Shown: piece by piece, positions 23,515 to 34,746 of the stretch
How positions within the stretch are numbered: the stretch's first letter is position 1
Layout of the letters: every line of letters begins with the position of its first letter
Origin: Nocardiaceae bacterium
GTDB taxonomy: Bacteria; Actinomycetota; Actinomycetes; Mycobacteriales; Mycobacteriaceae
Length of the DNA: 64,000 nt
Assembly (NCBI GenBank): GCA_021372355.1
Contig: JAJFUQ010000183.1
Coordinates: 1 to 64,000, forward strand
Reading direction: 5' to 3'
Position numbers and translations under genes: made by a program
The notes under the pieces: generated by a model
What the model was told of the DNA's origin: nothing
The model's database searches: none
The model's input: the letters and a program-made list of their open reading frames with translations, nothing else

Positions 23515-25164
23515 TCATCGACGCGGCGGCATCACCCGGTACAGGCGCCAACGCGGTTGATCGGCACCGTCGTTGGGAGCTTCCAGTTCGAGCAGGGCGA
23601 TACCGGCGCCATCTGCATAAAGCGTCGGGTATCGCCGGTTGAGCGCGTCCGATGTCCCGCGACCGGACGGAGGCACCGTGAGCAGGTACTGGACTCCCGA
23701 GCGCGCCGGGTCGTTCAGAATGGTCACGAAGTCGCGGTCGGAGGGAATGACGAATCGGCTCGGATGACGCGAGGCGGTGGTCACCGCAAACCCGTAGACG
23801 GAGTCCACCAGCACCGAGCCGTCCGGCAGATCGCGTGAATCGAGGTAGTCGGCGATCTGCCGCTCGGTGCCGAAGGTCGCCGCTATGGCGAGTTTCCGGT
23901 CGCGCAAGGCCACGTCATGGTCGTCGCTGTCGGGCGAAAGAACGACCGAGAGCGCGTATTCCTGGGGCGCGAGCTGGGGTTGCGCCATTCCCCATCCGCC
24001 GACGGCGATTCCCGCAGTCAGCGCGACGACACCCATTGCCGCCAACCCGCGAGCGGGAACACCGATCAGGTCTGACGACGAAAATGCTCCCGGACGTCGC
24101 GAAGGGGGAAGCAGACGGCGCTGTGGAAGCAGGAGCACCGCCGTTGCCAGCCACGGAATGACCGAGATGTAGAACCTGAGCAATCCGAAGGTCGAACCGC
24201 TCAGGTAGGACAGGACCTGGAACGCCACGATGGGAGCGCAGATGACGACGGGTACGAAGGCGGCCAGTTCCCGGCGCCGGACTCCGAGTGCGAATGCGAT
24301 GGGTGCGATGACGAGAAGGCCCGGAGCGAGCACGATGCACTCGGTGAGAGCGAACGCGATTCCCGCCGCAGGTGTCGGACGGGTGGCTCCGGATTCGGCG
24401 AGGATCGCTGCGTTGCCGTAGACCGAGGTGAATTGTGCGAATCCCTCACCGGTGAGCAACCAACTGACCGCCACCCAGAATAAGAAGGCGAACACGGGTG
24501 GCCCGGCGACCAGAATGACGTCGATCCGGGCGGCCACGAGTCGATCGCGAAGTGGCCCGGTGTGCCTTCGGACCGCGAGAGCACCCACGAACAGCGACGC
24601 GGAAGCGGCAGCGACGATGCCGTCATAACGAACCAGGTAGGCAAGGCCGAGCGACGACCCGACCACCATGAGGTCAGAAACGTCGTCGGTGCTGGTCCAT
24701 CGGATCAGGCGACGCATCGCCCAGCAGATGAAGAAGACGAACGGCGCTTCGCTCATTCCGTTGGCGCCGTAGAAGACGATCATCGGTGTCAGGGCGAAGA
24801 GTGTGGTTACCAGTGTCGTGAGCCGGCCCGGCACTCCGCGGTCGAGCCCGATGCCGCGTACTTGCACCACGGCACCTGCCATGAACACCGCAGAGGTCAC
24901 CACTCCGGATACCGCCCAGCGTGTCACCCCGGGCCACCACGAACTCAACACAGTCAGCGGGATCTGGACGAGCGCCGTGAGCGGCGTGAAGATGAATCCC
25001 AGCGCCGCCACGTGCGCATCGCGCGACAACACGACCGCGCGCGCGGCCGCTACCCGCGCCAGCGCATCGCCAAGGATGAACTGGTGCCCGATGGCCAACC
25101 AGAGCCCGGCCGCGAGGTAGCCCGCGAACGCCCCCGCGAAGACCGCCACAGACCGCCACTTCAT
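23515..25164 (-). CDS. Polytopic membrane protein, GT-C (GT39/GT87-like) glycosyltransferase
   Basis: A 549-residue protein with roughly ten transmembrane helices, then a soluble C-terminal part of about 150 residues. An early loop holds ILGDALARVAAARAVVLSRD, where GT-C enzymes often place an acidic residue, and a later loop has YGANGMSEAPFVFF. It looks like a polyprenyl-phosphate-sugar-dependent glycosyltransferase, but no definitive motif is visible. It is the last gene of the five-gene putative exopolysaccharide operon; ATG 25164 overlaps the GT2 stop by 4 nt. Confidence 0.65.
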   Translation of the reverse strand: MKWRSVAVFAGAFAGYLAAGLWLAIGHQFILGDALARVAAARAVVLSRDAHVAALGFIFTPLTALVQIPLTVLSSWWPGVTRWAVSGVVTSAVFMAGAVVQVRGIGLDRGVPGRLTTLVTTLFALTPMIVFYGANGMSEAPFVFFICWAMRRLIRWTSTDDVSDLMVVGSSLGLAYLVRYDGIVAAASASLFVGALAVRRHTGPLRDRLVAARIDVILVAGPPVFAFLFWVAVSWLLTGEGFAQFTSVYGNAAILAESGATRPTPAAGIAFALTECIVLAPGLLVIAPIAFALGVRRRELAAFVPVVICAPIVAFQVLSYLSGSTFGLLRFYISVIPWLATAVLLLPQRRLLPPSRRPGAFSSSDLIGVPARGLAAMGVVALTAGIAVGGWGMAQPQLAPQEYALSVVLSPDSDDHDVALRDRKLAIAATFGTERQIADYLDSRDLPDGSVLVDSVYGFAVTTASRHPSRFVIPSDRDFVTILNDPARSGVQYLLTVPPSGRGTSDALNRRYPTLYADGAGIALLELEAPNDGADQPRWRLYRVMPPRR

Positions 25165-26609
25165 GTCTCTTCGGCCGTCTCGTGCAGACCGTGGTACGTC
25201 TTCTCCCAATATGAGGGGTTCACGATCAGCTGCCAGCAACCCTTCGCGGCAGCGATGCTCATCAGAATCCAGTACAGCGGCAACAACAGGCACGCCGTGA
25301 ACAGTTCCGGTTGTCGATTTTCCCGCGCGGCAACGAGGTTCATGTAGATCGTCGCGGTGTTGCCGACGATGATGCACACCACCGACGGGTAGTAGACGAT
25401 CGGCGGGAACACCAGCGAGATAAAAGCCGGCTGGCCGAGGAACCAGAACAGTGTCAGGAGCCAGAACAACAGGTTGAGGCAGGCGATGATCGGGGTGCCG
25501 GCGAGCAAGAGGCTGAACCGCAGAAAGCTCACGGTGCCGATTTGTCTCCAGAGCCGGACCGGGCGGCGGGTGTGGACCAGCCACGTCTGTAGATAGCCCT
25601 TGTACCAGCGCGAGCGCTGCCGAATCCAGTTGATCGGGTCGCTGTTGGCTTCCTCGAGAGTCACCGAATCCAGTACGGCCGTTCGATATCCGTTCGCCGC
25701 GATGCGTACACCGAGATCAGCGTCCTCGGTGACGTTGTACGGGTCCCACGCGCCGATGTGTTCGAGGACCGAACGTTTCAGATGATTCGACGTTCCGCCC
25801 AGCGGAATCGGGGCGTCACTCTGCATCAAGCCGGGCAACAGGAAGCTGAACCACAGGCCGTAATCCGCGGTGAACCACTTCGTCAGAAGGTTCTGGTTCT
25901 CGTTGTGGAAGGACAGCTTCGCCTGGACACACGCAACGTTGTCCGGTGAATCGGCGAACGCTGCGACGACCCGTCGCAGCTGAAGTGGGTCTGGCAGATC
26001 CTCCGCATCGAAGATCGTGATGATGTCCCCGGTCGCGAAATGAACGCCGTAGTTGCACGCCTTGGGTTTGGTCCTGGGTTCTGCTGCGGGAACGAGCAGG
26101 ACCTGGACGTGATCTTCCATGTGATGTTGCTTGGCCGCTTCGATCGTGGCGAAGTCGTCTTCCTCGAGCAGGAGAAGGACCTGCAGCTTGGACGGCGGAT
26201 AGTGGAGCTTGCGCATCGCTCCGATGAGGTCGCCGACGACCTCCGGCTCGTCGTAGGCAGGGACGAGAACGGTGTAGTTCGGCAGTTCGTCGTCGGGGAT
26301 GGACAGCGCCTCGGCCTTGGAGACGGTGACGATCGCGTCGCGAGGCAGCCCCCGCCGGAAGATGAGAATGCGGTCGGCGATGGCGATCAGGTAGGTGAAC
26401 GTGCATATTCCGGCCAACACCGCCAGGGTCACCGTGGTGAACAGGACCAGAAAGACGCCGGTTGTGGCGATCAGTCCGCCGAGTACCCAACGTTGCCACG
26501 GCACCAACGGAACGGCAGCCGACGCGAGTGGATCGGATTCGCGCAGTCCGTGAACGGCATCGTGGAGTGCGGCCGCGATGAACTCGTCACTGGCCTGCCC
26601 GGGCTTCAT
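25161..26609 (-). CDS. Processive GT2 glycosyltransferase (BcsA-like core, no PilZ)
   Basis: A 482-residue membrane glycan synthase. Two N-terminal helices precede a GT-A domain with YTVLVPAYDEPEVVGDL, the DxD-type FDAEDLPDP, the TEDADLGVRI motif and the processivity motif QRSRWYKGYLQT (Q-x-x-R-W). Four C-terminal helices complete the channel. This layout matches cellulose/hyaluronan-type synthases that polymerise and translocate a polysaccharide from NDP-sugars. No C-terminal PilZ domain is present, so direct c-di-GMP control is unlikely. ATG 26609 overlaps the upstream gene's stop. Confidence 0.85.
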   Translation of the reverse strand: MKPGQASDEFIAAALHDAVHGLRESDPLASAAVPLVPWQRWVLGGLIATTGVFLVLFTTVTLAVLAGICTFTYLIAIADRILIFRRGLPRDAIVTVSKAEALSIPDDELPNYTVLVPAYDEPEVVGDLIGAMRKLHYPPSKLQVLLLLEEDDFATIEAAKQHHMEDHVQVLLVPAAEPRTKPKACNYGVHFATGDIITIFDAEDLPDPLQLRRVVAAFADSPDNVACVQAKLSFHNENQNLLTKWFTADYGLWFSFLLPGLMQSDAPIPLGGTSNHLKRSVLEHIGAWDPYNVTEDADLGVRIAANGYRTAVLDSVTLEEANSDPINWIRQRSRWYKGYLQTWLVHTRRPVRLWRQIGTVSFLRFSLLLAGTPIIACLNLLFWLLTLFWFLGQPAFISLVFPPIVYYPSVVCIIVGNTATIYMNLVAARENRQPELFTACLLLPLYWILMSIAAAKGCWQLIVNPSYWEKTYHGLHETAEET

Positions 26610-28066
26610 GGCGCCTGCTGAGCTGCGACGAGTGCGCGGCCAACGGTCTCGAGCAACGCACGGTCCTGGTAGTTCGGATTCGCGTCGGCGGTGACGGCAT
26701 TGCCGCGCAGGAGCACGGTGAAGATGTTCGCGAAGAATGCCCCGCGCGACGCCTGCGGCTCCGGAAACGCCGCCGTCGCCCGGTGGTCGTCCACGGAGAA
26801 GATGCTGACGCGTTGGACAACGTGGGAATTCGCCCACTGAAAGGTGAGCTTGGTCCACGTGAGTAGTAGCTGTTCGTCCACCACGGTGTAGAGGCGCGCC
26901 GAAATTCCGTTCCCGAGAGCGACGGTCAGCGCAGGGCTCTTCCGGGTGCGCGACATCTCGTAGAGGCTGCCCTCGGGATAGCTCGACAGCGCAGCGCGAT
27001 CGGTGGTGCTCAGCGAGTCGACCACGACGATGCGCGGCCGATCCTGGACGTCCCAGGCGTGCACCGGTTCCACCGCGACGAATCGCTGGCGCCGGAGTGT
27101 CGAGTCGGATCCCAAGTACCGGCTGACCCACGGGAAGGTTTCGGTGGCGGTTTCGATCCACCCGGCCGGCGTTTTCAGTGGCCGTCCCACGGCAATCGAT
27201 GCCGGTGCGGGCCCGGTCGGTTGGGCTACCGGCGGCGGAAGCGGGACCAGATGCATCGCAATCGCCGCTCCGACGAGAGTGATCATCGGGCCGCGGACGC
27301 CGCGGGCAGTCGGAGAGGGCAACGGATCGGCGAAGCGGAGTCGACCGTGGGGGCGCAAGACGACCGCCGAGACCAGTACGGCCGCGACCACGGCGGGAAT
27401 GGATTGCATGAGCGCCCGCGGTGGGTCGCTCATCAGGAGCGTGATCAGATTGAGCAATCCCGTTCCGATGACGGCGGTGGCGGCGGCGGCCGCCAGGGCG
27501 TCGCCGCGCGATGAGCCGACCGCGATCGCTGTCGCGATCGAGGCCATGGCCACCATGACGTACCCCGCGTTCACAGATTGACCGCCCACGGCGAGCACGA
27601 GGATTCGATACGGAAACGGTGCGAAGACGAAGACGAACAGCCACACCTGCCAGAAGCGGGCCAGCGGCCGTAGCCCGAACATGAGCACCGCGCCGCTGAG
27701 GACGAACACTCCGAGCGACCAGGCGTCGAGATGAATCATGCTGTAGTGGTCGGGATAGCGGGGTAGGAGCAACGCCTGTACGCCGATCGCGAGGCCGATG
27801 CCCATGCCTCCGACGATGACGTCGGCTTGACGGTCGTAGATCGGTAACGACTTCCACGGTCGCCGAGCGATGCCGATCAACGCGATGGCGGCCAGCACCG
27901 AGGCCGCATAGATGTAGGTGATCATCGAGCCTTGGCGAGACTCGGCAATCAGTCGTTCACCGGATTTCTGTGCTGCAACCGACCAACACACGGCGAGAAC
28001 GATCCAGCGAACCGTCGTGTCTGCCGCACCGCCGAGGTGCCGTTGTTCGTTGACCCCGGTCGTCAC
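26606..28066 (-). CDS. Large membrane protein of the exopolysaccharide operon
   Basis: A 486-residue protein with about eight hydrophobic helices in the first 270 residues, followed by a soluble, presumably extracytoplasmic C-terminal domain of about 200 residues (GRPLKTPAGWIETATETFPW onward). The layout superficially resembles exosortase-type proteins with an EpsI-like C-terminal domain, but I see no sortase-like catalytic triad and do not assign it. GTG 28066 was chosen because it overlaps the preceding stop (GTGA); an upstream GTG at 28126 would overlap that gene by 64 nt. Confidence 0.7.
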   Translation of the reverse strand: MTTGVNEQRHLGGAADTTVRWIVLAVCWSVAAQKSGERLIAESRQGSMITYIYAASVLAAIALIGIARRPWKSLPIYDRQADVIVGGMGIGLAIGVQALLLPRYPDHYSMIHLDAWSLGVFVLSGAVLMFGLRPLARFWQVWLFVFVFAPFPYRILVLAVGGQSVNAGYVMVAMASIATAIAVGSSRGDALAAAAATAVIGTGLLNLITLLMSDPPRALMQSIPAVVAAVLVSAVVLRPHGRLRFADPLPSPTARGVRGPMITLVGAAIAMHLVPLPPPVAQPTGPAPASIAVGRPLKTPAGWIETATETFPWVSRYLGSDSTLRRQRFVAVEPVHAWDVQDRPRIVVVDSLSTTDRAALSSYPEGSLYEMSRTRKSPALTVALGNGISARLYTVVDEQLLLTWTKLTFQWANSHVVQRVSIFSVDDHRATAAFPEPQASRGAFFANIFTVLLRGNAVTADANPNYQDRALLETVGRALVAAQQAP

Positions 28067-30009
28067 CGTCGAGTCCGGCCGGGCGAACGACGGTTCCGAA
28101 CCAGGACGAATCCGACCGCCAGACACGTCGCCACGGCGAGCGCCACGCCCGCAATCGCGATGTTCCGAACGAGCGGACTCGCGTTCTCTTCCGGAATCTC
28201 CGTGGGAGACCGGTCATTGAGGGACAGCATTTGCATCGGCCGGCCCCGGGGTTCGAAGAGAACGTCGCCCGTGAGCCGCTCCCACAGCGCCGGGTCCGCG
28301 TCGAGCTGTCGGAGGATGTCGTCAACCAGGTCAGGAGCCTTTGTCGACGTCGCCGCCAGAATCATTCGATGCCCGGTCCAGGCCGCCTGCAATGACCCGA
28401 AGGACACGCCCGGCAGCACTTGCATGTCGGTGGCCCCCTCGTTCGTGAGGACTTTCAGCGTGCTTACTTCGACCTCGGTGAGCGGAAGGGGAATCGAGCG
28501 GGGTATTCCGCCGTTTGCGGCGATCAGGATGGCAGGAAGGTCGCTGACGACAGCCGCATCGAAGTCGACGACTTGCGGAATAAGCGGAGCGTCGCTCAGG
28601 CGTTGCAGGCCCGAAATGAGTGAAACGGCGCGCCGGGTGTCGTCGAATCCGCCATCTGCGAGTCCGACATCCACGCGCGGCAGCAGACCTTGCGGCAATG
28701 CGCCGAATCCACCCGGACGTGGTTCGTCGGTCGACTCGGTGTGCACTTCACTCGCGGGATCGATCTCCAACGTGATCGGATTGTCGAGGCCACAGCCGGC
28801 ACTTGGGCCGGCCTGGTCGAACCGTACGGAGACCGTGGTGAATCGACCGAGCAGGTCGTTGGGGATGTGTATCGACCGGGAGAAGTGTCCGTCACCCGTC
28901 GCCGGCCACGAATCGAGTTCGCGGTTGCCGATCAGGACAACGAGGCGACCGCTGCTCGATGCGGGCGGGGGAGTGTACGACCCGCGCAGGTCGAGGGTGA
29001 CATTGCGGACTGGTCGGCCGAAACGCGTCTGATCGAGCCCGATGTCGACTGTTGCATGCAGAGGCGCGGTGACGCTGAGGTTGACCTCACCGAGATCCTG
29101 CAGTGTGGCACGCGTCGGTGCGATCTGGGATCGCGCCGCGAGGTCGCCCGCGGCAGCCCGCGGAGTCACTGCCAAACGGGCGAGGTCACTGGTGAGCAGC
29201 CGGACCTGGTCAGTGAGCGCCTCGCCGTGGCCGGCGAGTCGAAGCAACGGCGCCGGTCCGTCAGACCGCAGTTCCACGAACGGCTGGGGCTCATCCGTGA
29301 CCGCGATCTGCCGTTCGAGGGGAGCCGAGGGGTGGTCAGCCACGATCTGTCCGGGCTGGAACGAATGCGTCTCCACCAGGACCGGCTGTGGGCGATATTG
29401 CGAGACCAGGTCCGCGACCAGTTGCAGCGCCGCCTCGGTTTCGGACGCCTTGGGCGACGCCGGCACATAGACCGACACCTTCTGCAAAACCGGCGGCAGA
29501 AATTCGGCGACGACCGTGGGTGGTGCATCCACCCCGCTGTAGACCGTCTTCAGGTCGACAAGCCGGACCGCCGGCGTGAACCGATCGAGCAGGCACGGGC
29601 CATCGGCGACGACGCGGGTTCGCAACTCGAACGTCGCGTGGCCATCCACCACCGGCACTCCGGCCAACGGTATCGACACGCGAGTGCCGAGTGTTTGCGG
29701 GAGGTCGATTCGGGCCAGCAGTCGGCCCTTGTCGAGAACGTCGATCGATCCGCGACTGACGCCGGGCGCAAGCTCGACAGCTGCGTCCAGTGCTATTGCC
29801 GTCATGCCGTTCGCGACCGCCACCGACAGGGTGGCGGTGTCCGATATGTTCCAGAAGTCGAGATTCGGGGGGAGTCCCAGACTCCAAGTCGGTAAAACGA
29901 ACGCTAGCGGATCCCCAGGTTCTGCTAGCGCCGCAATAGGCGACGTGGTGGCCGCGGTTACCACGAGAAATGCGACTGCACCAACGCGGCAAATTCGTGA
30001 CAACACCAA
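28063..30009 (-). CDS. BcsB-like secreted/membrane-anchored glycan synthase partner
   Basis: A 648-residue protein with a signal peptide (AVAFLVVTAATTSPIAALA), a long beta-rich extracytoplasmic part and one C-terminal transmembrane helix (IAIAGVALAVATCLAVGFVL) followed by a basic tail. This is the topology of cellulose synthase subunit BcsB, which docks on the GT2 channel and guides the polymer. The position two genes before the BcsA-like synthase supports it; the sequence similarity was judged only by layout. The start is TTG 30009 or the next codon, GTG 30006. I prefer TTG provisionally. Confidence 0.65.
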   Translation of the reverse strand: MVLSRICRVGAVAFLVVTAATTSPIAALAEPGDPLAFVLPTWSLGLPPNLDFWNISDTATLSVAVANGMTAIALDAAVELAPGVSRGSIDVLDKGRLLARIDLPQTLGTRVSIPLAGVPVVDGHATFELRTRVVADGPCLLDRFTPAVRLVDLKTVYSGVDAPPTVVAEFLPPVLQKVSVYVPASPKASETEAALQLVADLVSQYRPQPVLVETHSFQPGQIVADHPSAPLERQIAVTDEPQPFVELRSDGPAPLLRLAGHGEALTDQVRLLTSDLARLAVTPRAAAGDLAARSQIAPTRATLQDLGEVNLSVTAPLHATVDIGLDQTRFGRPVRNVTLDLRGSYTPPPASSSGRLVVLIGNRELDSWPATGDGHFSRSIHIPNDLLGRFTTVSVRFDQAGPSAGCGLDNPITLEIDPASEVHTESTDEPRPGGFGALPQGLLPRVDVGLADGGFDDTRRAVSLISGLQRLSDAPLIPQVVDFDAAVVSDLPAILIAANGGIPRSIPLPLTEVEVSTLKVLTNEGATDMQVLPGVSFGSLQAAWTGHRMILAATSTKAPDLVDDILRQLDADPALWERLTGDVLFEPRGRPMQMLSLNDRSPTEIPEENASPLVRNIAIAGVALAVATCLAVGFVLVRNRRSPGRTRR

Positions 30010-30097
30010 TAAAGGCTACCGCGGCAACATGTTTCACTATGTGCAGTTTCTCCGATGGTAGCCGAACAAACGAGCGGTGAACGCCGTCCGAAAGTGC

Positions 30098-31216
30098 TCA
30101 GCGCCGGCGGTACGGATACTTCGTTTGTGTGTGTATTTCGGCGAACAGTGGGTCTGCCGGACCGATGTCGTAGGTGCATTCGGTGAGTCGCGGATCTGGG
30201 ACGTAAGCCCACACGAGTCCGCCCGCGGTACCGGCAGCTCGTTGACCGGACATCGTCTTGGACAGGGCGACCCGACGGTCTTCGAGGGACCTGCAGCTAC
30301 CGGCGACCGCCCCGATCTCGGCAACCAGAAGCGGTTTGCTCAGCTGTCGAGCCTGCCGGAGCCGAGCGGCGAGTCCGCTCGACGCGTCGCCCGGCAGGAC
30401 CGTCCCGGAGTCGAAGTAATCGTGATAGCTCAACACATCGACATAGCGAGACCTGCCGACGGTGACGTAATCGCCCGCGCTCGTCCCACACTGGTTACCG
30501 CCGAGGAAGCCCGCGAAGATCAAGCGACGCGGGTCAGCCGATCGCACGAGGACTCCGGCATCGTCCGCAAACCTGCGCATCAGCGTCGCCGCGTCGGCGG
30601 GACATGACCGCTGGGTGCACTCCAGGTCGAGACAGACGCTCGGTTCGGGCTCGCCGATCAGTTCCCATCCGGCGACCACCGGCGACGAGCGATATCGCGC
30701 GACCGCGATCGATACCCAGTCGGCGTAGCTGACCAGTTGGCCGGTACCGGGGCTCAGTCTTCGCCAACCATCGACGTACCACAACCGCTGCTTGAACACC
30801 TGGTCGTCACACCGACCGTCCTGCGGCGACAGCACGGGCAGGATCAGCCGCCTCGCACGCTCGGCGGCCCGGAAGACCGCATCCGCCGCGGAGAAGTCAA
30901 AGGACTGCGATTTCTTGTCGATCACCAGATGCTGAAACAGATTGAACCGAATGAGCGCATGCGGCGGGGTGGCGGCAAAGAAGGCATCGAGATCGACTTG
31001 TGCACCACAGCCCTCGTTGAGCGCGTAGCGCGTGAGGAGTTCGGGGGCATTGATACCCGCCGGCCACCAATCCACGCCGTTGAGTCGCAGGGTCGTCCCC
31101 TGGGCCGTCACGACCGGCACGGCCGGAGGCGCTGACGCCGTGAGGCCGAACATCGTGAGGAGTAATGCGACGATGACCACGAGCAAGGACGATCGCCTCT
31201 GCTCCCACTTCACCAT
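30098..31216 (-). CDS. Secreted GH5-like glycoside hydrolase
   Basis: A 372-residue protein with a signal peptide (SLLVVIVALLLTMFGLTASA) and a TIM-barrel glycosidase of clan GH-A. The acid/base Glu is in AGWELIGEPEPSV (canonical ...NEP is IGEP here), and the nucleophile Glu in KPLLVAEIGAVAG. An early LNGVDWWPAGINAPELL is typical of GH5/mannanase-like enzymes. It heads the exopolysaccharide operon, so it may trim or edit the polymer like BcsZ. The start codon lies within the RAE promoter module of the divergent helR. Confidence 0.8.
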   Translation of the reverse strand: MVKWEQRRSSLLVVIVALLLTMFGLTASAPPAVPVVTAQGTTLRLNGVDWWPAGINAPELLTRYALNEGCGAQVDLDAFFAATPPHALIRFNLFQHLVIDKKSQSFDFSAADAVFRAAERARRLILPVLSPQDGRCDDQVFKQRLWYVDGWRRLSPGTGQLVSYADWVSIAVARYRSSPVVAGWELIGEPEPSVCLDLECTQRSCPADAATLMRRFADDAGVLVRSADPRRLIFAGFLGGNQCGTSAGDYVTVGRSRYVDVLSYHDYFDSGTVLPGDASSGLAARLRQARQLSKPLLVAEIGAVAGSCRSLEDRRVALSKTMSGQRAAGTAGGLVWAYVPDPRLTECTYDIGPADPLFAEIHTQTKYPYRRR

Positions 31217-31326: not shown

Positions 31327-33501
31327 ATGTCAGATCGAGAGTACGAAGACGAGTTGCGGTCCGAGCGAGAGTACGTGGCCGACCTCTATGCACGACTCGA
31401 TGCCGAGCGCGCTCGGGTCGGCGCGAAATTCTCCGATGCCTTGCGCGAACACGGCGGCACGCTCATCGAGCGGGACGTCGAAGTCCGCACACTGGGGCGG
31501 GAAGTGCAGCGACTCGACGTCGCCGACAACGGCCTGTGCTTCGGCCGCCTCGACGCGCTGACTGGCGAACGTTCGTACGTCGGGCGGATCGGCATCTACG
31601 ACGAAGCGAATGAGTACGAGCCGCTGCTGCTCGACTGGCGAGCACCGGCCGCCCGACCGTTCTACGTGGCGACGGCAATATCGCCGGAGAACATGCGACG
31701 TCGCCGGCAGTTCCACAGTCAGGGCCGAGAGCTCGTCGACTTCAGCGACGAGGTGTTCGGGCATCCCGGTGGCGGCGAACGCGGAGACGCCGCCCTGCTC
31801 GCGGCGGTCAACGCCCCGCGTGGCGAGGGGATGCGCGACATCGTCGCGACGATCCAAGCTGAGCAGGACGAGATCATTCGGCTCAGCCACAACGGCGTCG
31901 TGGTCATCGAGGGCGGCCCTGGTACCGGAAAGACGGTCGTCGCGCTGCACCGCGTCGCGTACCTGCTGTACACGTACCGGGAACGCATGGAAAAGCACGG
32001 CGTTCTCGTCGTCGGACCGAACAAGGCGTTCATTCGACACGTCGGACGGGTGCTCCCGTCGCTCGGTGAAACGAGCGTCGTCTTCATGACGCCAGGGGAC
32101 TTCCTGCCGGGGATGCACGTGACCACCGAGGACGCCCCGGCGGTCGCTCGCCTCAAAGGTTCGCTCAACATGGTGACCGTTCTCAAGCGCGCGGTCGCGA
32201 ACCTGCAGCGACTGCCGGAGGACCCGATTCCGATCCAAGTCGGCGGCGTCAGTCTCCGGATCGACGACGACACCGCGGAGTGGGCGCGCGACGAAGCCCG
32301 GAACACCGGTCTGCCGCACAACGAAGCCCGCGCAAAATTCCGCGAGATCATCACCTACGTCCTCACCGAGCGCGCGATCGGCCGCCTCGGTCGGGGCTGG
32401 TTGTCTCGCGAGAATCGCAAAGAGTGGGAGGACATGCGGTCGTCGTTGATCGCAGAACTCGCCGCATCGGACACATTCACCTCGATGCTGGACCGGCTGT
32501 GGCCGGTATTGAAGCCGGAAACCTTTCTGGCCGAGCTCTATTCGAACCGAAGCCGACTTCGGGCGGCCGGTGCCGACGACGCGTTGTGGCGCGAAGACGG
32601 TGCCGCGTGGACGGTCTCGGACGTTTCGCTCATCGACGAGCTCATCGAGATCATCGGACGCGATCCCGCCGATGATGCGGCCGCGGCCCGCGAGCGCGCG
32701 ACCGCGATCGAGCACGCCAAGGACGTCATGGACATGATGGTCACTCGCCAGGACAACATGGATGGCGAAGGCATGCAGCTGTTCGCGAACGAGATCATGG
32801 ACGCCGAGCGCCTGGCCGAGCGGTTCGTGGAACGCGACACCCGCGACGTCGCCGAACGCGCGGCGTCGGACCGCGACTGGACGTATCGGCACGTGGTGGT
32901 GGACGAGGCACAGGAACTGTCCGAGATGGACTGGCGCGTCCTCATGCGCCGCTGCCCGACCAAGTCGTTCACCATTGTCGGCGATCTCGCACAGCGTCGT
33001 TCGTCGGCCGGTGCGACGTCGTGGGGAACGATGCTCGAGCCGCACGTCCCCGGTCGCTGGGCTTACCGGACGCTGACCATGAACTACCGCACGCCGGCGG
33101 AGATCATGGCGGTGGCCGCCGAGCTTCTCGCGTCGTTCGCCCCGGGTGTCGAGCCGCCGGAGTCGGTCCGATCGAGTGGCGTCCAGCCATGGTCGCGACA
33201 GGTTTCCGAAAGCGAGATTCCCGCTGCGATCGATCAATTCGTCGCCGAAGAAGCGGAGCGGGAGGGCACGAGCATCGTCATCGGGCCGGTTGGTTTCCCG
33301 GGAACGGTTCCCGCTTCGGAAACGAAGGGTCTGGAGTTCGATTCGGTTCTCGTTGTCGAACCGGAACAGATCATCACCGAAGGCGAACGGGGTGCGGCCG
33401 AGTTGTACGTGGCACTGACGCGAGCCACGCAGCGCCTCGGCGTACTGCACGTCGGCCCGCTGCCGGATTCGCTTGGCGGTCTGGCGGTTTCCGGCCGTTG
33501 A
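31327..33501 (+). CDS. helR: HelD/HelR-type superfamily-1 helicase-like protein (rifamycin protection)
   Basis: A 724-residue UvrD/Rep-like ATPase lacking RecB-type domains. An N-terminal coiled segment (YEDELRSEREYVADLY) is followed by Walker A EGGPGTGKTVVALHR near residue 198, motif II VVDEAQELSEMDW near 525, and motif VI VALTRATQRL near 694. HelD proteins bind RNA polymerase and free stalled complexes. The RAE-controlled HelR subclass displaces rifamycins from RNA polymerase. The RAE at 31230 makes HelR the best call; a housekeeping HelD remains possible. Confidence 0.85.
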   Translation: MSDREYEDELRSEREYVADLYARLDAERARVGAKFSDALREHGGTLIERDVEVRTLGREVQRLDVADNGLCFGRLDALTGERSYVGRIGIYDEANEYEPLLLDWRAPAARPFYVATAISPENMRRRRQFHSQGRELVDFSDEVFGHPGGGERGDAALLAAVNAPRGEGMRDIVATIQAEQDEIIRLSHNGVVVIEGGPGTGKTVVALHRVAYLLYTYRERMEKHGVLVVGPNKAFIRHVGRVLPSLGETSVVFMTPGDFLPGMHVTTEDAPAVARLKGSLNMVTVLKRAVANLQRLPEDPIPIQVGGVSLRIDDDTAEWARDEARNTGLPHNEARAKFREIITYVLTERAIGRLGRGWLSRENRKEWEDMRSSLIAELAASDTFTSMLDRLWPVLKPETFLAELYSNRSRLRAAGADDALWREDGAAWTVSDVSLIDELIEIIGRDPADDAAAARERATAIEHAKDVMDMMVTRQDNMDGEGMQLFANEIMDAERLAERFVERDTRDVAERAASDRDWTYRHVVVDEAQELSEMDWRVLMRRCPTKSFTIVGDLAQRRSSAGATSWGTMLEPHVPGRWAYRTLTMNYRTPAEIMAVAAELLASFAPGVEPPESVRSSGVQPWSRQVSESEIPAAIDQFVAEEAEREGTSIVIGPVGFPGTVPASETKGLEFDSVLVVEPEQIITEGERGAAELYVALTRATQRLGVLHVGPLPDSLGGLAVSGR

Positions 33502-33549: not shown

Positions 33550-34746
33550 TCAGTTCAGCAGCCAGTCATTCGGCGAGAAGAGTTCGAAGTGCGCGGCTTC
33601 GGCGGGCACGCCCATATCGAGCAACTGGCCCCGAACATGCTGCAGAAATCCCGGTCCACCACACAGGTAGTACTGGGCCGTTCGGGGGAGTCCGAGGGAG
33701 CGCACGTCAAGTGCCCCAGCACCGCTCGAGTCGTACCAGAATTCGACCGTTGCGTTCGGCAGGTCCTCCATCAGCTCCAGCATCCGGTCACGCAGCGGGT
33801 GTGTTTCTGGTGCGGTGTCGGCGTGGACGACCCATACCGATCGCTCGCAGTCATGTGCAGCGAGATGAGCGAGTATTCCGGCGATGGGCGTGACTCCGAT
33901 GCCTGCCGAGATCAATACCAGCGGGCCGCGGTCGTCGTCATCGACAACGAGGTCGCCGAATGGGAGCGTCACGTCGACTTCGGTACCCGGCGTTGCGTGC
34001 GTGCCCAGCCAGTCCGAGACCTCGCCAACTCGGCGCGCAGCGAACGTGTAGCGCCCGTCGCCGGTTGCGGCGTTGATCAAGCTGTATTGGCGAAGCTGGC
34101 GCGCGCCGTCCTCGAGCGGCACTCCCACGGAGATGTACTGACCCGCATCGAAATCGGGGAGCGGGCAGGAGGGGTCCGCAGACTCGATCGTCACCACGAC
34201 GGCGCCCGCCGGATCGTCCGAGCGCGACGTGACGACCGCCCGCCGGAACACGTCTCCCGGTTCGACGGCCGAGTCGACGTACAACTGCTTCTCGAAGTCG
34301 ATGAGCAGGTCGGCCATCAGCCAGTAGACGCGGTCCCACGCTTCGGCGATCGCGGGCGTGACCACATTCGCGCCCAGAACCTCGACGATCGCACCGAACA
34401 AGTGCTCGTGAACCACCTCGTACTGGTCCGCGGTGACGCCCAGCGACGCGTGCTTGTTTCCGATGCGCCCCAGCATGTCGGCGGGGTTGGGTAGAGACGG
34501 GTCGATCAAGTGTGTGGCGAAGGTGGCGATAGAAGCCGCCAGGGCTCGTTGTTGAGAACCCTGCGCCTGGTTGCCGCGATTGAACAAGTCGGTCTGAAGC
34601 GTCGGATGCGCAGCGAACAGCCGACCGTAGAACGTCCGCGTGATGGCGTCGATGTTCGCTCCGATCACAGGAAGAGTGGCACGGATGACGTCGGCGTGGA
34701 CCGGGTCCAGGGTCGGCTTCGGCGAAAGGGAACGGTCACTCTTCAT
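33550..34746 (-). CDS. hmp: Flavohaemoglobin (nitric oxide dioxygenase)
   Basis: A 398-residue globin-FAD-NAD(P)H reductase fusion of normal length. The globin shows Tyr B10 in ITRTFYGRLF and the proximal His in RIGNKHASLGV. The reductase has the FAD motif RQYSLINA, the NAD site SAGIGVTPIAGIL and the C-terminal HFELFSPNDWL. Hmp converts NO to nitrate with O2. Two tandem DosR-like boxes lie upstream, an unusual regulatory link for hmp. Confidence 0.95.
   Translation of the reverse strand: MKSDRSLSPKPTLDPVHADVIRATLPVIGANIDAITRTFYGRLFAAHPTLQTDLFNRGNQAQGSQQRALAASIATFATHLIDPSLPNPADMLGRIGNKHASLGVTADQYEVVHEHLFGAIVEVLGANVVTPAIAEAWDRVYWLMADLLIDFEKQLYVDSAVEPGDVFRRAVVTSRSDDPAGAVVVTIESADPSCPLPDFDAGQYISVGVPLEDGARQLRQYSLINAATGDGRYTFAARRVGEVSDWLGTHATPGTEVDVTLPFGDLVVDDDDRGPLVLISAGIGVTPIAGILAHLAAHDCERSVWVVHADTAPETHPLRDRMLELMEDLPNATVEFWYDSSGAGALDVRSLGLPRTAQYYLCGGPGFLQHVRGQLLDMGVPAEAAHFELFSPNDWLLN

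Follow-up and report, generated by a model that had tools for sequence, protein, structure and literature searches.

The stretch of DNA analysed here (the window) comprises 64,000 nucleotides of Nocardiaceae bacterium (assembly GCA_021372355.1, contig JAJFUQ010000183.1, positions 1-64,000), and its minus strand carries a five-gene operon that probably encodes a synthase-dependent polysaccharide machine, with an exosortase fold that has lost its catalytic activity as a structural subunit. The initial annotation had described five minus-strand genes, four of them joined by 4-nt overlaps, and both the open reading frames (ORFs) and the three overlaps that join the last four of them (28063-28066, 26606-26609 and 25161-25164) were confirmed. 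The glycosidase ORF ends 88 nt ahead of the TTG at 30009 that opens the BcsB-like ORF, and the G+C content of the operon region is unremarkable relative to the rest of the window. The five genes are as follows.

30098-31216, minus strand: GH5-like (clan GH-A) glycosidase, predicted to be secreted, 372 amino acids (ATG at 31216, stop at 30098)
28063-30009, minus strand: extracytoplasmic protein with a predicted BcsB fold, 648 amino acids (TTG at 30009, start uncertain)
26606-28066, minus strand: exosortase-type protein with eight transmembrane helices (8-TM protein) and an outer domain, predicted to be inactive, 486 amino acids (GTG at 28066)
25161-26609, minus strand: GT2 synthase, putatively of the processive type, without PilZ or MshEN, 482 amino acids (ATG at 26609)
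23515-25164, minus strand: GT-C glycosyltransferase of the PMT_2 type, 549 amino acids (ATG at 25164)

This gene set is conserved, beyond chance association, and is widespread in Mycobacteriales. Protein searches recovered the BcsB-like gene from 55 of the 121 genomes of the same family, covering 20 of 31 genera (the window's own genome counted). Among 40 loci fetched around these matches, relatives of the GT2 stand beside the BcsB-like gene in 37, and the 8-TM gene is present in 34 by tblastn and in two more (L070 and L073) by profile; in L069 it lies outside the stretch fetched. We also scanned named records with the GT2 profile and kept the best 80 of 579 confirmed relatives, i.e. the closest ones, among which the 8-TM and GT-C genes accompany the GT2 in 80/80 loci, the BcsB-like gene in 77/80 and the glycosidase gene in 39/80, bearing in mind that locus counts are not independent events and that two of the fetches overlap. 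In the three loci lacking a BcsB-like gene (L142, L187 and L195) the contig breaks off inside the 8-TM gene or shortly upstream of it. These best 80 of 579 come from Nocardia, Rhodococcus, Prescottella, Williamsia, Gordonia, Tsukamurella, Mycolicibacterium, Corynebacterium, Dietzia and other genera. The operon is present in Rhodococcus erythropolis (L126) and Mycolicibacterium vanbaalenii (L163). Identity to the window proteins in this main version of the operon is about 60-68% for the GT2 and about 31-41% for the BcsB-like and 8-TM proteins. A second, divergent version, in the order 8-TM, GT2, BcsB, GT-C, is found in L070, L072 and L073 with identities of about 48-50% (GT2) and 21-26% (BcsB-like and 8-TM); genomes G115 and G116 carry it alongside the main version, and L070 holds two BcsB-like genes. 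Additional 8-TM matches lie upstream of the BcsB-like gene in the mycobacterial loci L159, L162, L193 and L194. A search of plasmids with the BcsB-like protein gave zero matches.

The GT2 product matches PF13641 in Pfam (E 1.1e-28), and the motifs DAED, TED and QRSRW, together with a C-terminal WEKTxH, are invariant in all 33 rows of its family alignment; its membrane helices were judged by eye. The solved structures nearest to the family profile are those of BcsA (5e-16). In a midpoint-rooted tree of 27 sequences the window protein is one of 15 rows that form a clade (support 100/97) separate from BcsA and PgaC, and ArnC, WcaA and WcaE, which have neither TED nor QxxRW, are placed outside the processive group. 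As the fork that sets them apart is supported at only 88/88, with very long branches and a midpoint root, the motif evidence outweighs the tree here. Taken together, motifs and tree position suggest a GT2 of the processive type.

To look for input from cyclic di-GMP (c-di-GMP) we searched for PilZ and MshEN, neither of which is found anywhere in the window's genome at E<=0.001; the GT2 itself likewise has no PilZ. MshEN does occur above its Pfam cut-off in five of the five GT2s of this clade that were scanned (L107, L108, L112, L113 and the plasmid locus L223), which belong to other lineages and were chosen for a visible N-terminal extension. Partial text of a study on NfrB describes an MshEN domain next to a GT2 domain as binding c-di-GMP (PMC8669469). 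Tallying MshEN against an 8-TM gene in the same stretch for 132 GT2 frames scoring at least 200 bits gave 118 with the 8-TM gene and no MshEN, 8 with MshEN and no 8-TM gene, 0 with both and 6 with neither, one of the last (L069) being cut by the fetched stretch. This apparent exclusion should be read with caution: nearly all of the 118 belong to a single clade, overlapping fetches count some genomes twice (L069 and L126 lie on contigs of equal length), five of the eight positives had themselves supplied the MshEN profile, and L118 and L238 fall outside the tally. We do not claim a functional swap between the two.

The 28063 product scores 14.9 bits against PF03170 in Pfam, below the cut-off of 21, in a family of which 17/41 members match PF03170 at E<=0.1 (best 1.9e-6). 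Searching the PDB by sequence returned RuvC (0.25) and a designed-looking beta protein (0.0096), both of which we took as chance, and a fold search was needed. An AlphaFold2 model built from 75 aligned sequences (pLDDT 88.9) matches the solved Escherichia coli BcsB with a Foldseek E-value of 2e-31, and VIA-align places 533 residues at Z 24.6 (root-mean-square deviation 5.1), the first unrelated row in the comparison standing at Z 8.4. The model thus predicts a BcsB fold over nearly the whole length of the protein, and helices 7-22 and 612-640 were read by eye as the signal and a C-terminal transmembrane anchor. The C-terminus consists of a transmembrane helix and a basic tail, as in an exosortase client (8 of 75 C-termini inspected).

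The model of the 8-TM protein (pLDDT 92.1) has, with the helices assigned by eye, eight membrane-helix units before residue 241, another at 258-273 and a beta-rich outer domain at 284-484. Of its family, 4/34 members match the exosortase family Exosortase_EpsH (PF09721) at E<=1 (best 8.5e-9); L048 (35.6 bits) and L058 (30.8 bits) pass the cut-off of 25.7, each over profile positions 2 to about 142, and L046 is just under it (24.9 bits). NCBIfam exosortase models are matched by up to 7/34 members, weakly (best 1.5e-4), and Pfam scans of chosen members gave an exosortase match in 0/9, four of them divergent or paralogous, and in 3/10 of another set. As a control, exosortase families are absent from the E<=1 matches of 33 multi-pass GT-C proteins of the same operons. 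When aligned to 12 triad-bearing exosortases led by L118, the family matches over its first half (94.7%, E 6e-8). A search with the 8-TM profile found relatives in 9/396 genomes of the phylum, seven of the same family together with G203, the source of L118, and G470; relatives of L118 in the class of G203 were limited to L118 itself (1/66 genomes).

The G470 match provides the main link. In this locus (L238, 2932-9639) genes for a GT-C, a 388-residue protein, an exosortase-type protein and a GT2 lie on one strand, the GT2 and GT-C being of the same families as those of the window. The exosortase-type protein retains an intact triad (C215, R260 and H281) and scores 56.7 bits against TIGR04178 exo_archaeo, where the cut-off is 23. 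The 8-TM family profile finds it with an E-value of 2e-40 (Z=1e6), and hhalign aligns the two over their full length (99.7%, E 1.4e-26, 466 columns). The neighbouring 388-residue protein ends in a TM-like helix followed by RRRR, as read by eye, and could be a sorted substrate; it has zero matches among NCBIfam models, and its candidacy as a BcsB relative was rejected at 3.8%. A BcsB-like gene was not found in L238, a contig of 10.6 kb. The tie between exosortase and GT2 is seen again in L117 (7606-11537), where a processive-type GT2 adjoins a short exosortase whose best NCBIfam models, XrtS and XrtR, are both under their cut-offs.

The Cys/Arg/His triad, fusions of EpsH with EpsI and the residence of these proteins in polysaccharide loci are described in the available part of Haft and others 2006 (PMC1569441). 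The triad was not found in the 8-TM family: among 102 distinct members aligned with the L238 protein the Cys column is gapped in 102/102, an Arg lies no more than four columns from the Arg site in 0/102, and a His lies that close to the His site in 1/102. In a smaller alignment the gap corresponds to a deletion of roughly 45 residues carrying the Cys, in 10/10 members. Within the family itself, whatever the alignment to exosortases, a Cys column is common to at most 13/34 or 17/75 members, and 15/75 have no Cys at all. By these alignments the window protein appears to be related to exosortases by descent but not to function as one.

The outer domain stands where EpsI would, and we do not call it EpsI; DUF3485 (EpsI) is touched by 1/34 members, with an E-value of 0.036. 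In the fold search it gave MOG1/PsbP-like matches with Z up to 7.8 (for MOG1), which may reflect no more than a common arrangement. W411 and R454 are invariant and D468 nearly so, which argues for a retained function.

The window glycosidase has zero Pfam matches of its own, PF00150 included, in searches where 6/27 members of its family alignment (the window protein being one of the 27) match PF00150 at E<=0.1 (best 2.6e-5); a signal peptide was judged by eye. Both catalytic glutamates, E189 and E300, are invariant in 27/27 members in the contexts WELxGEPE and VAEIG, in a region aligned with the mannanase 4awe, and this pair suggests membership of clan GH-A. The GT-C protein scores 27.1 bits against PF13231 (cut-off 26.1), a PF13231/PMT_2-type match is found in 30/33 members at E<=1, and D33, R37 and H51 are invariant. 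GT-C enzymes of the PMT_2 type usually use polyprenyl-phosphate sugar donors. That a GT-C belongs to the conserved core points to a polymer that receives its decoration outside the membrane, with a polyprenyl-phosphate sugar as donor. The processive QxxRW-type synthase, the BcsB-like partner, the eight helices with a roughly 200-residue outer domain, the GT-C and, at E<=0.001, the lack of PilZ in the initial annotation are all borne out by these results; its GH5-like secreted glycosidase stands in so far as the Glu pair and a mannanase-like profile speak for it, and the PF00150 match is wanting in the window protein itself. Neither a structure unrelated to BcsB nor a GT2 grouped with non-processive enzymes, the two outcomes that would have told against the initial annotation, was obtained. 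What the annotation had missed are the exosortase relation of the eight-helix protein, the spread over Mycobacteriales and the c-di-GMP-type domain in some sister GT2s.

We therefore consider it probable that the operon encodes a synthase-dependent polysaccharide machine with an inactive exosortase fold as a structural part, a reading supported directly by gene content, conservation, the BcsB fold, the motifs and clade of the GT2, the GT-C family, exosortase homology and triad loss; that the product is an exopolysaccharide we infer. In such a machine the GT2 would polymerise a sugar nucleotide in the cytoplasm and pass the chain through its own membrane channel to the BcsB-fold protein, which would receive and guide it outside the membrane. 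The GT-C would add side sugars on the outer face from a polyprenyl-phosphate donor and the secreted glycosidase would trim or release the chain, with the triad-less 8-TM protein and its outer domain acting as a non-catalytic scaffold of the complex.

Several observations weigh against this reading, above all in what it says of the 8-TM protein. Its scaffold role, the most likely one in our view, is a guess, and its identity as an exosortase relative rests on sequence: PF09721 is matched at E<=1 by only 4/34 members, with the window protein not among them, and an alignment to eight XrtD proteins alone reaches 7.4%, XrtD being too distant. In a fold search with the model Foldseek returned nothing at E<=0.001 and exosortases were absent from the matches listed, and a PDB sequence search with the 8-TM alignment returned nothing at E<=5. 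The bridge through L238 comes from one draft genome, and the largest alignment places the Cys of L118 off that of L238, where the smaller one puts both together, which points to local alignment uncertainty. The client-like C-terminus of the BcsB-like protein may equally suit ordinary BcsB anchors. Finally, 3/40 family loci (L034, L052 and L071) have the BcsB-like gene without the other operon genes, and the genomes G001 and G029 of such loci lack both an 8-TM relative and a close GT2, so the BcsB-like protein may also work alone.

There is a more specific version of the favoured reading, which we consider rather less likely than not: in the ancestry of the Mycobacteriales an exosortase already coupled to this GT2 and GT-C would have lost its active-site segment and would now hold the BcsB-fold anchor against the synthase, without MshEN input. 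The idea that the inactive exosortase holds this anchor stems from the client-like shape of the BcsB C-terminus. If true, an exosortase fold as a synthase subunit would explain why exosortase genes are found in polysaccharide loci.

As to the polymer itself, a mannose- or N-acetylmannosamine (ManNAc)-based product, closer to that of Nfr than of Bcs, would be compatible with such a machine, and we regard it as a rather doubtful suggestion. It draws on the glycosidase, whose family profile finds GH5 endo-mannanases best in the PDB (4awe, 1.7e-14), with 13/15 of the solved proteins matched at E<=0.01 named as mannanases. GH113 is a family that holds beta-mannanases, and a GH113 gene belongs to the related set on the plasmid locus L223. 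For ManNAc there is L117, where a UDP-N-acetylglucosamine (UDP-GlcNAc) 2-epimerase, identified by eye, is near the processive-type GT2 and the short exosortase. However, the substrate cannot be read off from a glycosidase family, GH3 is found instead in L105, a distant set, and the five window genes include no gene for sugar-nucleotide synthesis or conversion. The likeness of the glycosidase to mannanases is a weak pointer to a mannan-type polymer.

Alternatively, the 8-TM protein could be a polymer-modifying enzyme (e.g. a transferase) in which conserved residues of the loops and outer domain are catalytic, which we think unlikely. Such residues do exist: D78, R79, D82, R103, D114, R133, W411, R454 and D468 are conserved, and the L238 protein, with its triad, has the same residue at R20, D78, R79, D82, R103, D114, R133, R326, D350 and W411. 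Acyl_transf_3 is moreover touched by 2/34 members (best 3.8e-4), a further point against the exosortase reading. Yet the detailed Acyl_transf_3 match, that of L046, scores 16 bits where the cut-off is 31, no transferase family is above a curated cut-off for the 8-TM proteins where cut-offs are shown, and the fold matches of the outer domain are middling, with the MOG1 match already given as the best.

A Gram-positive variant of Bcs with true cellulose as its product is quite improbable. While the BcsB fold and the fact that CelA is the best NCBIfam match of the GT2 (69.8 bits) would fit, this score is far under the cut-off of 699, the GT2 clade is apart from BcsA, the glycosidase resembles mannanases with no member matching GH8 in Pfam at E<=0.1, and PilZ is absent from the genome at E<=0.001. 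Further, in Listeria Pss a BcsB orthologue serves a synthase whose product is not predictable as cellulose, in the part of that report available (PMC4125290). A decaying or accessory locus without present function is barely credible, for although the spread is patchy (55/121 family genomes) and the congener G001 retains only the BcsB-like gene in the same place, the frames are open, the overlaps tight and the GT2s of the main version about 60-68% identical between genera.

Returning to the polysaccharide machine with an inactive exosortase fold, its parts recall several known systems. It shares with Bcs (BcsA-BcsB) a processive-type GT2, the BcsB fold and a glycosidase, but it has no PilZ, its GT2 lies outside the BcsA clade, its glycosidase is GH5-like and not GH8, and it adds a GT-C and an inactive exosortase; of the marks of Bcs, the BcsB fold is thus present and a GT2 of the BcsA/CelA family with PilZ is not. 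Listeria Pss (pssA-E), also from a Gram-positive, likewise has adjacent genes for a GT2 and a BcsB orthologue, with a composition that cannot be predicted from sequence, but has an I-site c-di-GMP receptor, PssE, and the available excerpts do not mention an exosortase-type protein (PMC4125290). With exosortases of the XrtD/XrtA type and EpsI the 8-TM protein shares its core and a C-terminal outer domain, whereas it has lost the Cys/Arg/His triad, the outer domain is not clearly DUF3485, and no sorted substrate protein is evident among the five window genes. XrtG of Lactobacillaceae is also an exosortase-family protein tied to glycosyltransferases in a Gram-positive, but comes with a Firmicu-CTERM target, and the excerpts at hand do not mention BcsB or GT-C (PMC12854382). 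In Nfr (NfrB of E. coli) a processive GT2 is coupled to MshEN, as the partial source states (PMC8669469), and some of our sister GT2s are alike in this; the MshEN of NfrB is at the C-terminus, however, that of the sister GT2s precedes the GT2 domain, and the window GT2 has none. The pairing of a GT2 with a BcsB orthologue in a Gram-positive (Listeria Pss) and the tie of exosortases to glycosyltransferases (XrtG) are therefore already known. Searches of open-licence papers listed none evidently concerned with the operon or with an inactive exosortase in these genera, which is weak evidence of novelty, and the combination with an active-site-less exosortase is what this limited search did not turn up.

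Some surrounding and distant loci can be noted here. Neighbouring the operon in the window are a UvrD-type helicase (31327-33501) and a globin and NAD-binding protein of the flavohaemoglobin type (33550-34746). In the congener G001, the lone BcsB-like gene of L034 (6866-8797, opposite strand) is flanked by the apparent orthologues of two window genes, for a serine hydrolase and the UvrD-type helicase; elsewhere this genome has only a distant GT2 match (3e-14) and no 8-TM relative. In L071 the BcsB-like gene lies amid what was judged by eye to be a Wzx/Wzz-type polysaccharide locus, without a GT2 of this clade. L223 (4453-11943, on the Hyphomicrobiales plasmid CP131057.1, Pseudomonadota) encodes the GH113 enzyme on the opposite strand, the MshEN-GT2, a response regulator and a 527-residue protein, and its BcsB-like protein is matched by hhalign at 95.3%.

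To our knowledge, polysaccharide synthases of the BcsA/BcsB kind have been little described in mycolic-acid bacteria. An operon conserved in Nocardia, Rhodococcus, Gordonia, Williamsia, Tsukamurella and many Mycolicibacterium offers a genetic target for the study of their surface glycans and biofilm polymers, and with an inactive exosortase in it the long-known link of exosortases to polysaccharide loci becomes open to direct testing. Should the polymer still depend on a protein that lacks its active site, the exosortase fold would have a role beyond protein cleavage, a hint that it may be one of the components from which polymer-export systems are built.

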